Below are positions 48,161 to 54,902 of a DNA stretch of 64,000 nt, piece after piece. The translations under genes were made by a program, and so were the position numbers. Source of the stretch: an uncultured Granulosicoccaceae bacterium (GTDB lineage Bacteria > Pseudomonadota > Gammaproteobacteria > Granulosicoccales > Granulosicoccaceae); contig CAKZUP010000065.1 of assembly GCA_937922945.1 (NCBI GenBank), forward strand, positions 1-64,000, in the 5' to 3' direction. The stretch's first letter is position 1, and each line of letters opens with the position of its first letter. The notes below the pieces were generated by a model that worked only from the letters and a program-made list of their open reading frames with translations, searched no databases and was not told the DNA's origin.

Positions 48161-48442
48161 ATGACATTTTTAAATGATGCATTTAATAGTGGCCGTATTA
48201 TCGAGATCTTATTGGTCATTGTGCTTGTTGAGGCTGTGGCTCTGCTCGTTTACTGGAAAAACACAGGGCGAGGCGTTTCACCGGTATCTTTGATTGGTAT
48301 GCTTGGAGCGGGAATTTTTTTAATGCTTGCTATTCGTTCTGCAATACAAAACTCAGCAACTGAATTGCTCGCTATGTGGCTTCTGCTGTCATTGGTATTT
48401 CACGTGATTGATCTTTGTCATCGTTGGAAACGGGACGCATGA
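48161..48442 (+). CDS. Orf93, small three-helix membrane protein
   Basis: 93-aa hydrophobic protein with three predicted helices (about 13-32, 40-62, 67-86) and a positively charged end (HRWKRDA). No motif I know. It lies between orf52 and crtI in the bchG-to-crtI plus-strand unit, 22 nt before and after its neighbours. By location it could assist carotenoid or BChl enzymes at the membrane; that is inference only. Confidence 0.75.
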   Translation: MTFLNDAFNSGRIIEILLVIVLVEAVALLVYWKNTGRGVSPVSLIGMLGAGIFLMLAIRSAIQNSATELLAMWLLLSLVFHVIDLCHRWKRDA

Positions 48443-49974: not shown

Positions 49975-51504
49975 CTACAGGTCGCGCAAACCGCTTCGAT
50001 CCTTGAGCAGTTGTTTGGCTGCCAGCTGACCGGACAATGACACCATTGGAACACCAGCTCCCGGGTGCACAGTACCACCTGCCAAATACAGACCATTTAT
50101 GTTTGTTTGCGCACTTGGCCTACTAAACGACCCCATCCAACCGTGTGTGGGTCGACCGTAAAGCGCGCCTTTGCTGGCTGGGAACAGCTGAGCAAACGAA
50201 TTGGGCGTGTCAATGTGGGAGGTGCCCTGATGACCGGTTAGCGTTAAGCCGTGTGCCTGTAGGCGTGCTGTCATTGTATTACAGGCGTTATCGATGTCAC
50301 AGTCGCTCAGATCTTTTGCCGGTGCATTCATCAGGCTAAAAAGGCGCTCACACTGCAACTGGGTTCCATCTGAATTAGTATCTGATACACGTTGGGTATC
50401 ATTTCTGTCTTGGGCGCAGACATAAATTGTAGGGTCCTCGTGTAGAGTCTGTTTTCCAAAAATCGCCTTGAATTCAGCTGCGTAGTTGTCTCCAAAGAAA
50501 ACATTATGATGTGCCAGATTGAAGCCGTGACTTTGCGCAACTTCTGCGCGCGCTATGGCCGACAGCGCAGGTGCGTTAACCGTTCTGGCGGCATTTGAAC
50601 AAGCTGCCCCCACTGACCCATTCGAAAGTGCGAGTACATCCCCGTTGAAAATAACAGCGCTTGCATCTAATTTGACACCATCTTCCAGCGAAACACCGAC
50701 AACACCCGATGTGTCAGTTCGTATTTTTTCCACCGAACAACCAACGTGTACCTCACACCCAAATGACTTGGCAGCACTTAGCAACGCCTCGGCTAACGCC
50801 TGCATGCCGCCATCGATTACCCAGACACCCGCTCTTTCAACATGCGCAATTAGCATCAAGGTTGCTGGCGCCTGAAAAGGCGATGAGCCACAATAGGTTG
50901 CATAACGAGCAAACAGCTGAATGAGACGAGGGTCAGAAAATGATTTGCTCAACGATTTCCACAAGGAGATAAAAGGTTGTATCTGAGCCATTTTGCCAAT
51001 GCCACCAATCCCATTCGAGAACGCAAGACCAACGGGGCTAGGGCGCAAAGATTGCATGAACGAGGTGTTCAGTGTATTGAATACGTCTTCTGATTTTTTG
51101 GCAAAATCTCGATATGCCTGCGCATCTTTGGCTCCTGACATAGCCTCGATACACTGTGCTGATCGCTCTACGCTGGAATGCAGATCAAGATGATCACTGC
51201 CCACCCAAGAGTGGCGGGCTAGAACTGAGTTCTGACGCAGGTTAATGCACTCATCGAGTGACAATCCGGCATCAGCAAATAGTTGTTCGAACACCCAACG
51301 CATGGTAAATACCGTTGGGCCAACATCGATGTATTTATTCGCAACTCTGACTCTTCGAGCTTTCCCACCCACGCTGTTGTGTTGTTCAATAACGGTAACC
51401 GGTACACCTTTGCTAGCCAAAACCACTGCAGCCGAGAGGCCACCAATCCCAGCACCCACAATGACAACGCGGTGTTTTTTATCGGCCAACAGACACAATT
51501 GCAA
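49975..51504 (-). CDS. crtD: Hydroxyneurosporene/methoxyneurosporene desaturase CrtD
   Basis: Up to 509-aa CrtI-like desaturase that introduces the C3,4 double bond in the spirilloxanthin route. FAD motif VVIVGAGIGGLSAAVVLASKGVPVTVIEQ and C-terminal LYLAGGTVHPGAGVPMVSLSG. No ATG or GTG is available before the FAD motif: only TTGs at 51504, 51498 and 51489 are in frame, and an in-frame stop lies 24 nt upstream of the first. The TTG at 51489 gives a normal CrtD N-terminus. Last gene of crtC-idi-orf255-crtD. Confidence 0.93.
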   Translation of the reverse strand: MQLCLLADKKHRVVIVGAGIGGLSAAVVLASKGVPVTVIEQHNSVGGKARRVRVANKYIDVGPTVFTMRWVFEQLFADAGLSLDECINLRQNSVLARHSWVGSDHLDLHSSVERSAQCIEAMSGAKDAQAYRDFAKKSEDVFNTLNTSFMQSLRPSPVGLAFSNGIGGIGKMAQIQPFISLWKSLSKSFSDPRLIQLFARYATYCGSSPFQAPATLMLIAHVERAGVWVIDGGMQALAEALLSAAKSFGCEVHVGCSVEKIRTDTSGVVGVSLEDGVKLDASAVIFNGDVLALSNGSVGAACSNAARTVNAPALSAIARAEVAQSHGFNLAHHNVFFGDNYAAEFKAIFGKQTLHEDPTIYVCAQDRNDTQRVSDTNSDGTQLQCERLFSLMNAPAKDLSDCDIDNACNTMTARLQAHGLTLTGHQGTSHIDTPNSFAQLFPASKGALYGRPTHGWMGSFSRPSAQTNINGLYLAGGTVHPGAGVPMVSLSGQLAAKQLLKDRSGLRDL

Positions 51505-51531: not shown

Positions 51532-52299
51532 TCATTTTGAGCTATTACCATATTTGCGCGTTGCATCGATAATTTTATCGTCTGCACTATTGACACGATC
51601 GCCAATATTACCGGCAACACGTGAAAAGAAATCTTCATTGCTGCTAAGTGCTTCAACATCTTGTGATGCTGATCTGGATGCTTCCAATTTTTTATCGAGA
51701 CGCTTGTCTACAGAATCCAGTTTCGAAGAAACACCACTTACCATACGAGCAAACAACCCACCTTCGTCAGCGAATTTTCCTGTCTCTAATTGAGTTGTGC
51801 GATCAATTTTCGATTGCAGTTTGTCCTCCGCTTTCTTCATTTTATTGGTTACTTTTTTGACCATACGACCCACTGCCGAGTCGTCATCCGCAACAGATGC
51901 GCCAATGGACTTCGAAACAGAGGCATCCACCTTCCGGCTTAATTTGTTATCGACACTTTCAGACAGTGCAGTCACTTTTGCCAATGAACGATCAAATAAG
52001 GTGTCGGGCGGGTTATCCAGCGACGCAGCGATTTTTCGTTCAATTCGCTCGCTGCTGCTGATGGTTTTTCTCTGTACGCTCTGCACGGCTTTAGCAAATT
52101 TTGAGTCTTCCTCTGCGATGGTCATATCTGCCTCATCGCCGATAAAGTCCGGGTTAATTTTATGACTGATTTGCATAAACAAGCCCTTGTCTGGGTCATT
52201 TTCGTCTGCATTGTCTTTTATCAGATCGCGTTCTGCCAAGCCTTGCATGGTGAGGTAGCATGCGACTGTTACCAAAAACAAAGTAATTAGCCAAATCAT
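51532..52299 (-). CDS. Orf255, membrane-anchored repeat protein in the carotenoid operon
   Basis: 255-aa protein not recognised. An N-terminal helix (about 2-20) anchors a long, charged, mostly helical tail. The tail contains five degenerate repeats of about 32 residues at about 65-96, 99-131, 140-172, 178-210 and 220-249. Each opens with a D/E-x-x-[FL] segment and a V-x-x-V or equivalent, and most end in a [SA]-x-[DE]-[KR]-[IL]-x-x-K-[ILV] helix (SVDNKLSRKVDAS, AEDKLQSKIDRT, SVDKRLDKKLEAS). A scaffold or coiled-coil role beside carotenoid enzymes is possible. It lies 27 nt before crtD and 66 nt after idi. Confidence 0.82.
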   Translation of the reverse strand: MIWLITLFLVTVACYLTMQGLAERDLIKDNADENDPDKGLFMQISHKINPDFIGDEADMTIAEEDSKFAKAVQSVQRKTISSSERIERKIAASLDNPPDTLFDRSLAKVTALSESVDNKLSRKVDASVSKSIGASVADDDSAVGRMVKKVTNKMKKAEDKLQSKIDRTTQLETGKFADEGGLFARMVSGVSSKLDSVDKRLDKKLEASRSASQDVEALSSNEDFFSRVAGNIGDRVNSADDKIIDATRKYGNSSK

Positions 52300-52365
52300 T
52301 TTTTGTCCTCTCGTATTGGATGTTCAACAAACTGTGCGAAGCACAGCTATTGGAAAATCTGAAGC

Positions 52366-52932
52366 TTACGGCTGCTGCATAAGCATTGGCTCACCAATTT
52401 GACAGGCCGCTTGTTGCAGCAAGTCGAAATGCTTAAGCACATAAATTCTTATCCACTTAGTATAGCGTTGAGGCTTATCCATGACCTCTTTTCTTAAACT
52501 CTCAAGGTCAATCCAGCTAACGGCCCTCACTTCATTTTTGTTAAAGTTTTCGACCGAAGTTTTGTCTGGTAATCTACCAACGTAGCAAAACACGGATTCA
52601 TTTTCGAACAGCTCTTGCCCAACATCGGCCGCATATTTTATCTTTCCAAAGAATTTAACCTCAGCGCTAAACCCGAGTTCTTCAAATACTCTTCTAGTTG
52701 CACAATTGTCTGGCGACTCTTGCCAGCGGGGGTGTGAGCAGCAAGTATTAGCCCATAAATCACCCGAATGATACTTATGCGAGGCACGTTGTTGCAATAG
52801 CAGCTTGCCGCGATGAAACAAAAATATTGAAACAGCCAAATGGGGTGTGTTTTTTACATGCGCATCCATTTTATCGATCGGATAGAGACCACCGTGTTTG
52901 TCGATAGCGGTAATCATCTCGCTTCTGTCCAT
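52366..52932 (-). CDS. idi: Isopentenyl-diphosphate delta-isomerase, type I
   Basis: 188-aa Nudix-type isomerase interconverting IPP and DMAPP, feeding CrtE. The catalytic Cys is in ANTCCSHPRW, with metal ligands in the HKYHSGDLWANTCCSHP stretch; the Nudix helix is RRVFEELGF. The ATG at 52932 was chosen because it gives the usual N-terminus; the longer frame runs back through the crtC 3' repeat. Four nt separate it from the crtC stop. Confidence 0.95.
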   Translation of the reverse strand: MDRSEMITAIDKHGGLYPIDKMDAHVKNTPHLAVSIFLFHRGKLLLQQRASHKYHSGDLWANTCCSHPRWQESPDNCATRRVFEELGFSAEVKFFGKIKYAADVGQELFENESVFCYVGRLPDKTSVENFNKNEVRAVSWIDLESLRKEVMDKPQRYTKWIRIYVLKHFDLLQQAACQIGEPMLMQQP

Positions 52933-52936
52933 GGTA

Positions 52937-53953
52937 TTACTTCTCAATGTTCGCAGTCGATATGTTCGCAGTCGATATGTTCGCAGTCGATTCAAAGTGG
53001 GATTTAGCATTGTTCGGGCTACTCCTTCGGGGCATGCGGAACGGTAATAAGCATTGAACCCAGCGTTTGTTCAAACGATCAAAATCAATGCTTTCATGAA
53101 TACAGACTGCGTGTTTCCCGTCGATTTTTGTGGTGAAGCGATTTCTTGAATAAAATGGGGTGTCCTCTAATACCGCCAAATTAGTGATATCTTCACCGGA
53201 CTGCAGGCGCGTGTTTTGTTTAATCCGCCAGTAGCGAGTCTTCGGTAATGCCTTGTGACGAGTTAATCCTGGTAGCTCCACACAATCGTTATGAGCGAAA
53301 CTAAGGGTTTTTAAGTCGTGCGTACCATCGCGCCGCTTAACGTCATACTGCACTACGGTATCGCTGTTTTCTAAATGCGCCCTAGACCAATTCCATGATT
53401 TAAATGCTTGTCCCATGGGTTCATAACCAAAGTTGGTGTCGACGTAGGCGTTACCACTCCAGTGTATTTCGGGTTTTTTGAACCCAACAGTAATGCGTGT
53501 ATTGGGTGCCAGTACCCGCCAAAAATGCAGATTGTTGGAATCCAATGCCAAAGTGCTATCAGTAAGCCCATGTAGATTGACGCGGATTTGCCCGACAACC
53601 TTGCGAGGCAACGGTACGGACACTTCATCAATATTACAAACAAGTTCATTGTTGATTAGAGTAACGTCGCTAGGGCCGATTCGATACCGAGTGGCTGTTC
53701 TTTCAATGCTGTTGGCAGATCTTTCCGTCATGGTCCATCGATTCACTGTTCCATAGAGCGCCACATTAATAGCGCAGTGATGCTCGGCACTGGTTGGGCT
53801 TCTATTGCGAGACCAAGCGTAATAAGGCGAGAAGACACTACCGACGAAAACAATAATCGTCAAACTATTCTGGCCATCATCGCTGATTGCATCGATGTAC
53901 CACCAGCGATACCCGTTCTCACAAACCGGTGAATCAAATTCAGGAAAAGACAT
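52937..53953 (-). CDS. crtC: Carotenoid 1,2-hydratase (hydroxyneurosporene synthase)
   Basis: 338-aa hydratase adding water across the psi-end of neurosporene/lycopene. The ATG at 53953 precedes the family start (GYRWWYIDAISDDGQNSLTIIVFVGSVFSPYYAWSR). Further signatures: INVALYG, DTNFGYEPMGQAFKSWNWSRA, and LPFRMPRRS. The C-terminus ends in three copies of STANI, encoded by a perfect 15-bp tandem repeat. Divergent from crtE, sharing the operator at 53987-54004. Confidence 0.95.
   Translation of the reverse strand: MSFPEFDSPVCENGYRWWYIDAISDDGQNSLTIIVFVGSVFSPYYAWSRNRSPTSAEHHCAINVALYGTVNRWTMTERSANSIERTATRYRIGPSDVTLINNELVCNIDEVSVPLPRKVVGQIRVNLHGLTDSTLALDSNNLHFWRVLAPNTRITVGFKKPEIHWSGNAYVDTNFGYEPMGQAFKSWNWSRAHLENSDTVVQYDVKRRDGTHDLKTLSFAHNDCVELPGLTRHKALPKTRYWRIKQNTRLQSGEDITNLAVLEDTPFYSRNRFTTKIDGKHAVCIHESIDFDRLNKRWVQCLLPFRMPRRSSPNNAKSHFESTANISTANISTANIEK
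52947..52991 (-). repeat. Three perfect 15-bp tandem repeats at the end of crtC
   Basis: The unit ATGTTCGCAGTCGAT is repeated three times without a mismatch, encoding STANI-STANI-STANI at the CrtC C-terminus. It is in frame, so copy-number change would only alter the tail. Confidence 0.95.
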
Positions 53954-53971
53954 GTTAGCAGTATTGCATAG

Positions 53972-54000
53972 TTGACATATGATATGTGTCAGAATATTCT
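53972..54000 (+). promoter_or_regulatory. crtE promoter (sigma70-like)
   Basis: TTGACA (53972-53977), exact 17-bp spacer, TATTCT (53995-54000). The start point would be near 54007, about 20 nt before the crtE ATG, which has GAGAGT as a moderate SD. The -10 lies in the centre of the PpsR operator. Confidence 0.72.
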
Positions 54001-54004
54001 GACA
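53987..54004. promoter_or_regulatory. PpsR/CrtJ operator of crtC/crtE
   Basis: TGTCAGAATATTCTGACA is an exact TGT-N12-ACA box and also a perfect palindrome, extended to GTGTCAGAATATTCTGACAC (20 bp). It lies between divergent crtC and crtE and covers the crtE -10. Confidence 0.88.
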
Positions 54005-54026
54005 CTTTGAAGCCTGAGAGTAACCC

Positions 54027-54902
54027 ATGCAAGCACATGTGCGAATTGAGCAGTTACTTGTCGAGCTTAGCGCTAGATTGTCGAATTCAACGACACCACC
54101 CAAACTTACTCAAAGCATTGATTACGCTCTCTTTCCCGGAGGTGCAAGAATACGCCCCAGGCTGGTAATCGCCGTTAGTGAGGCATATTCAACCGATAAG
54201 AGGCAATCTCGAACAGCAATAAATGCCTCAGCGGCGGCAGTTGAAATGATGCACTGCGCATCCTTGATTCAGGATGATTTGAAGTGTTTCGACGATGCCG
54301 ATTCGCGGCGGGGTAAACCGGCTTTGCACACAGTCTGGGGCGCAGGCAACGCGATTCTCACCGCAGATGCTTTAATTGTTGGCTGTTTCCAAATTTTAGC
54401 AGACGAGGGAATTGATAGCGCCACTAGTGCGGCGCTCATTCGTAAGCTGACTCGGCATACAGGTTCATGCGGTGGCATAACAGCGGGGCAAGCATGGGAG
54501 GCTGAAACCACAATCGACCTGGATGCCTATCATGCGTCCAAAACAGGTTCGCTCTTCGCCGCCGCGACAGAGCTTGCCGCTATATCAGTCGGTGCTAATC
54601 CGGATGATTGGTCAAGGCTAGGGCTGCTTATCGGTAGTGCCTATCAAATTGCCGACGATATCCGTGACACTATCGGAAATACCAACGATCTGGGAAAGCC
54701 CGTTGGCAAGGATGTCGAACTACACCGGCCAAATATCGTACTGCAGGTCGGTATGAATAAAGCCGTGGCCCGCCTAAAGAGGCTGGTTGAGGATGTGGTT
54801 GAAAGCGTTCCAAATTGCGATAATCGATTCGAGTTTCAAAAGACGGTACATCAAGAAGCCAATCGATTTATTCCAAAAGAAATCGATCGCTATGCCGCCT
54901 GA
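54027..54902 (+). CDS. crtE: Geranylgeranyl diphosphate synthase
   Basis: 291-aa trans-prenyltransferase making GGPP for carotenoids and the BChl tail. First Asp-rich motif DDLKCFDD with downstream RRG (83-95); second motif QIADDIRD (about 210-217). YALFPGGARIRPRL supplies the IPP-binding residues. Overlaps crtF by 11 nt. Confidence 0.95.
   Translation: MQAHVRIEQLLVELSARLSNSTTPPKLTQSIDYALFPGGARIRPRLVIAVSEAYSTDKRQSRTAINASAAAVEMMHCASLIQDDLKCFDDADSRRGKPALHTVWGAGNAILTADALIVGCFQILADEGIDSATSAALIRKLTRHTGSCGGITAGQAWEAETTIDLDAYHASKTGSLFAAATELAAISVGANPDDWSRLGLLIGSAYQIADDIRDTIGNTNDLGKPVGKDVELHRPNIVLQVGMNKAVARLKRLVEDVVESVPNCDNRFEFQKTVHQEANRFIPKEIDRYAA

Follow-up and report, generated by a model that had tools for sequence, protein, structure and literature searches.

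A membrane-anchored amphipathic-repeat protein in the photosynthesis gene cluster of a Granulosicoccaceae bacterium, from a family found throughout Granulosicoccus

The gene ORF255 is located on the reverse strand of the window (the whole stretch of DNA that was analysed, 64,000 nucleotides) at positions 51532..52299. It codes for 255 amino acids from an ATG start, with a Shine–Dalgarno-like site, GAGAGGAC (52305..52312, reverse strand), 5 nt ahead of the ATG. Upstream on the same strand are idi, encoding IPP isomerase (52366..52935), and crtC, encoding carotenoid 1,2-hydratase (52937..54103 as the longest reading frame; the true start is probably lower, near 53851). Downstream lies crtD, encoding 1-hydroxycarotenoid 3,4-desaturase (49975..51504, reverse strand), which matches NF045637 above its cut-off. 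The gene order is crtC-idi-ORF255-crtD, ORF255 being separated by 66 nt from idi and by 27 nt from crtD. A preliminary description of this DNA, made from the letters alone, had placed a 255-residue frame between idi and crtD and pointed to its close packing with crtC, idi and crtD; the boundaries proved exact and the genes are co-directional.

The surroundings of ORF255 constitute a photosynthesis gene cluster (PGC). The neighbouring crtD, crtI, crtC, crtE and idi genes match the models for CrtD, CrtI, carotenoid hydratase, prenyl synthase and IPP isomerase, respectively, the curated cut-offs being passed by CrtD and CrtI only. No intergenic promoter or terminator signals above chance were detected around ORF255. 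A membrane ORF of 93 aa is located ahead of crtI (window 48161-48442) and is also kept in the PGCs of genomes G017 and G066. Kelp-associated Granulosicoccus are described as aerobic anoxygenic phototrophs (PMC9238374); ORF255 is not mentioned in the available text of that report.

The protein is composed of an N-terminal anchor and five degenerate repeats. A transmembrane helix is predicted at residues 1-20 (52240..52299, reverse strand), where AlphaFold2 gives a helix at residues 2-33 and the family has its N-terminal module. The repeats, defined by alignment as ungapped 25-mers, occupy residues 68-92 (52024..52098), 102-126 (51922..51996), 143-167 (51799..51873), 183-207 (51679..51753) and 225-249 (51553..51627), all on the reverse strand. 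Their sum-of-pairs BLOSUM62 score of 283 was reached by none of 200 plain shuffles of ORF255 (55 ± 16, maximum 116) and by none of 200 shuffles in which the hydrophobic/charge pattern was preserved (186 ± 27, maximum 264), and no Pfam or NCBIfam model recognises the protein at its cut-off. The original observation of an unrecognised, membrane-anchored helical protein with five repeats is thereby confirmed, as is the repeat periodicity, with some corrections of detail. The repeat starts, first given as 65, 99, 140, 178 and 220, move to 68, 102, 143, 183 and 225, and the spacing is 34, 41, 40 and 42 residues rather than a constant of about 32. The motif [SA]-x-[DE]-[KR]-[IL]-x-x-K-[ILV], said to end most of the repeats, fits only repeats 1 and 3 when read strictly; the consensus is approximately F-x-R-x-V-x-x-V-x-x-K-x-x-x-x-D-x-K-L-x-x-K-[ILV]. 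Positions 1, 5, 8, 12, 15, 19 and 23 are apolar, and this is conserved in every repeat.

AlphaFold2 predicts, after the N-terminal helix, one helix per repeat (residues 61-93, 101-131, 142-171, 182-211 and 221-253), as separate helices devoid of tertiary packing or a globular fold, in a model of low confidence (pLDDT 45, pTM 0.18); a Foldseek search with this low-confidence model returned no match at E ≤ 0.001. Hydrophobic residues recur with a period of 3.67 residues per turn in ORF255 and 3.6-3.75 in the long-tailed members of its family, at a resolution too poor to separate the 3.67 peak from the heptad value of 3.5. The helical moment of the repeats is 0.41-0.58. The mean hydrophobicity of the helices is near zero (-0.11 to 0.15), less than a protein that binds lipid strongly would show; the lipid-binding discriminant D is low in two repeats (0.38 and 0.45). 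The tail has 18% basic and 17% acidic residues, and the family tails in general are rich in Lys, Arg, Asp, Glu, Ser and Ala and contain no Cys or Trp. According to the positive-inside rule, the basic flank of a membrane helix marks its cytoplasmic side. In ORF255, Lys and Arg flank the anchor on its C-terminal side only and no positive charge precedes it. A cytoplasmic tail is the most likely topology predicted from this charge distribution.

A search with the single ORF255 sequence found homologues confined to Granulosicoccus, and a 13-row profile found family members in 26 of 27 genomes of this genus, the exception being G011, a genome 63% complete. In a named contig collection, a first search with the ORF255 protein gave no match; a profile of the closer members matched 12 contigs, all titled Granulosicoccus or Granulosicoccaceae. 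Nothing convincing was found outside Granulosicoccaceae among 272 other genomes of the class. ORF255 belongs to a new family that is narrow in distribution but recognisable in kind, that of membrane-anchored amphipathic repeats. Most of the Granulosicoccus genomes that carry the family have no reaction-centre genes.

Besides ORF255, the genome of the window carries a second, chromosomal copy (G000:C13:27135-27548) at a locus that is syntenic across the genus. In nearly all genomes the chromosomal copies have on one, convergent side genes that we take to be a dipeptide epimerase, DUF1611 and sometimes ndh2, and on the other side presumed hemC, pntAB, putA or other genes; these names come from similarity between the loci and recognition of the sequences, not from curated models. 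ORF255 itself lies within the PGC and not at this pntA/hemC-epimerase location, and it matches the N-terminal anchor module of the family (E = 2.9e-8 with profile A4 and 3.0e-5 with profile A5, both built without ORF255). The tails were compared by length, because the repeat HMM is too short for a clean count of copies per homologue. PGC-adjacent copies (215-295 aa) are longer than chromosomal ones (141-255 aa; Mann–Whitney p = 4e-4, relatedness not corrected). Four chromosomal members (L065 9512-10234, L077 9879-10427, L069 6668-7153 and L075 9643-10086) have tails built from 17-residue units (GALGKAKQKAQDAMKDD, GALGKAK type) in almost perfect tandem repetition, unlike the repeats of ORF255, which suggests that the tail of the family is quickly replaced or re-expanded.

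The anchor is also found in related genera. At the pntA-side locus of g2 (G027, G032 and G035) and g3 (G028) there are single-span ORFs of 35-38 aa with Shine–Dalgarno sites, divergent from pntA (L122 6908-7021, L123 4671-4784, L124 7453-7569 and L083 9454-9561). They can be aligned to the family anchor and have no tail; profile A4, built without g2 members, recovers all three g2 microproteins at E values of 2e-5 to 3e-3. None was found in genera g4-g6 or in the rest of the class sample. This distribution suggests that the anchor probably came first and that the tail was added in Granulosicoccus.

A reaction-centre family was matched in nine Granulosicoccus genomes, eight of which have a true PGC. 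The ninth, G009, was rejected as a phototroph: its match is an orphan PufM-like protein, and crtC, bchZ and other reaction-centre genes were not found in this genome. This protein of 282 aa (L108 1917-2765, equivalent to G009:C18:21917-22765, forward strand) is encoded by a gene that immediately follows aerR-like and ppsR genes and precedes sox-like genes. The four His positions used by PufM to bind bacteriochlorophyll and iron are all replaced (PHLDW to PQLEW, NPFHMLS to NPFIILS, also AMHGAT, and a last one whose replaced form is TIYRGAWW). A cytoplasmic loop has been lost as well, but the reading frame is open. It is probably a chlorophyll-free relative of the reaction centre placed beside photosynthesis regulators.

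In all eight true PGC genomes of Granulosicoccus a family member adjoins crtC or idi, which bears out the operon linkage first described. Four of these genomes (G000, G002, G003 and G017) have a PGC-adjacent copy in addition to the chromosomal one. ORF255 groups with the cluster copies of G002, G003 and G017 (support 96/97), apart from the chromosomal copies including that of its own genome; long branches meet in this clade and the tree program warns of it. Two homologue matches (G005:C18 and G016:C163) were kept out of the trees, as the common stretch is only about 25-40 anchor residues. The link to the PGC therefore stands in a weaker form than proposed: homologues of the family lie mainly outside phototrophs, and a distinct paralogue clade is restricted to phototrophs (4/8 against 0/19 of the other genomes in the genus).

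In the four remaining phototrophs (G007, G008, G019 and G026) the single copy is both adjacent to crtC-idi or idi and chromosomal, ending against ndh2 or the epimerase. A separate contig of G026 joins pufC to hemC, which in non-phototrophic relatives is the neighbour of the ORF. In the non-phototroph G023, the idi gene beside the ORF nests in the PGC idi clade. This PGC-type idi (L024 10636-11223), present together with a second, ordinary idi elsewhere in the genome, is a probable footprint of the loss of a photosynthesis cluster. The pufC-hemC junction of G026 and the idi of G023 suggest that the PGC was probably once located in the ORF-hemC gap of this group and was later lost from some members. 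The tree discriminates poorly (support 43/64) between an origin of the cluster copy from this ORF-hemC contact and its origin in an older duplication, and trees of the PGC genes and of the neighbouring genes conflict only weakly.

The ORF is absent from the one PGC found in a sister genus, that of G066 (genus g4), which has crtD, crtI, idi, crtC, crtE and puf genes; present in 8/8 PGCs of Granulosicoccus and missing from that of another genus, it does not behave as a PGC core gene. The G066 cluster (L109 and L110, G066:C18:30431-47945) differs from that of the window in gene order: crtD, crtI, orf93, idi, pufC, pufM, pufL, pufA, pufB, bchZ, bchY, bchX, bchC, crtE, crtC. The presence of the family throughout the genus (26/27), mostly in non-phototrophs and at a conserved chromosomal locus, together with its absence from the G066 PGC, leaves the carotenoid-specific part of the initial interpretation unsupported. 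That interpretation is partly supported as a whole, and ORF255 is not a carotenoid-specific component by descent.

Close homologues compared in pairs give dN/dS values of about 0.04-0.22 (dS being high or saturated), and these low ratios indicate that the frame codes for a constrained protein. In G003 and G017, where idi is missing from the operon, the ORF is still flanked by crtC and crtD; it shares 4 nt with crtD in G003 and lies 8 nt from it in G017. This tight packing despite the loss of idi suggests a kept, co-expressed function, though not a specific one.

A period of 3.67 residues per turn in a charged tail is typical of amphipathic helices lying on a surface, and we tentatively favour, as plausible rather than probable, a model in which an anchor microprotein bearing an amphipathic tail, with one copy captured by the PGC, forms a tethered helix array that organises the inner membrane face. 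The starting unit would be a microprotein of about 36 residues, encoded beside pntA and crossing the inner membrane once, whose ancestral status is suggested by the distribution. In Granulosicoccus this anchor carries a fast-evolving tail of amphipathic helices, probably on the cytoplasmic side, and one copy has become part of the PGC between crtC-(idi) and crtD, where purifying selection keeps it. The anchor would pin five amphipathic helices of about 30 residues to the cytoplasmic face of the inner membrane. There they may rest on the lipids or associate loosely, apolipoprotein-like, the array acting as a putative non-enzymatic organiser or stabiliser of the membrane surface. The PGC paralogue could then supply this membrane-surface activity during the insertion of carotenoid and photosystem components. 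It is doubtful that it goes as far as a dedicated paralogue, derived stepwise from the pntAB-linked microprotein, that shapes or stabilises the membrane domain of carotenoid making and insertion.

The main rival, and a quite possible one, is that the gene is a passenger. Its product would be a membrane or stress protein of general function, carried along from a chromosomal gene adjacent to the cluster, that still performs this general function and has no carotenoid-specific role. This is what the four single-copy phototrophs suggest, since their idi-adjacent gene is the chromosomal one, as do the cluster piece of G026 that ends at hemC and the probable relic idi of G023. Such a passenger would hardly explain why four lineages retain an extra, divergent PGC copy under purifying selection, or why the copy of G003 and G017 is still tightly packed with crtD. 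A coiled-coil scaffold, whose repeats would oligomerise or bind CrtC and CrtD directly and so keep a complex of carotenoid enzymes membrane-bound, would suit the tight operon linkage with crtC and crtD, and the apolar positions are compatible with a 3-4 heptad spacing. We consider it unlikely, given that the family is mostly found in non-phototrophs (crtC was not found in 7/7 true non-phototrophs tested), that the G066 PGC has no such ORF, and that the peak period is nearer 3.67 than 3.5, even at poor resolution. Somewhat less credible still is a protectant of the LEA/hydrophilin type, in which tethered charged helices would guard membranes during drying, suiting life on seaweed surfaces; the composition of the tails and the 17-residue tandem units agree with it, but there is no LEA or CsbD Pfam match and the apolar positions are conserved in each repeat, unlike in typical hydrophilins. 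A phasin-like coat on polyhydroxyalkanoate or pigment granules, also envisaged in the preliminary description, is highly improbable, as the amphipathic helices match Pfam Phasin only at E = 1.6, a score below any meaningful level, and a transmembrane anchor is foreign to phasins.

ORF255 shows how a PGC can acquire and retain an accessory protein peculiar to one genus, and a route can be traced from an unannotated membrane microprotein of 36 residues to a repeat protein of 255. The occurrence of the same family in non-phototrophs makes operon position alone a poor guide to carotenoid function. If the PGC copy does matter for the organisation of pigment or membrane, it would be a phototrophy accessory factor overlooked by annotation.

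A literature search found no paper on a carotenoid-cluster amphipathic anchor or a pntA-linked microprotein, and the known families resemble ORF255 only in part. Its top raw Pfam match is DUF445 (PF04286; E = 6e-4 over residues 68-228), at 20.2 bits against a required 33.8, and ten homologues scanned gave no match to it. Apolipoprotein A1/A4/E (PF01442) shares the arrays of long amphipathic helices, with a periodicity near 3.67 residues per turn, and a weak profile similarity to the family (E 7e-4 for the G003 copy); two homologues score 15.5-19.7 bits against a gathering score of 90, ORF255 is not listed at E ≤ 10, and a profile search of PDB sequences gave only weak helical-bundle and apolipoprotein matches (ApoA-IV, E 0.04). 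Composition alone may cause this similarity. The apolipoprotein unit is an 11/22-mer, whereas that of ORF255 is a core of about 25 residues at a spacing of 34-42, and ORF255 is bacterial and membrane-anchored. Stress proteins of the LEA group 3 and CsbD types also have charged, repeated helices, but ORF255 is anchored by a transmembrane helix and conserves its apolar positions, and LEA_4 and CsbD gave no match at E ≤ 10 for ORF255 or ≤ 1 for ten homologues. Phasins (PF05597) have a similar amphipathic helical surface-protein shape; ORF255, with 9.2 bits against the 28.8 required, differs in having a membrane anchor. The tailless anchor of g2 and g3, a one-span microprotein of 35-38 aa, recalls the CydX/FixS-type microproteins found beside enzyme complexes, and one member of the anchor module is similar to FixS (E = 1.3e-3). 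It differs from them in giving no CydX match, in adjoining pntAB rather than an oxidase, and in carrying a long tail in Granulosicoccus.
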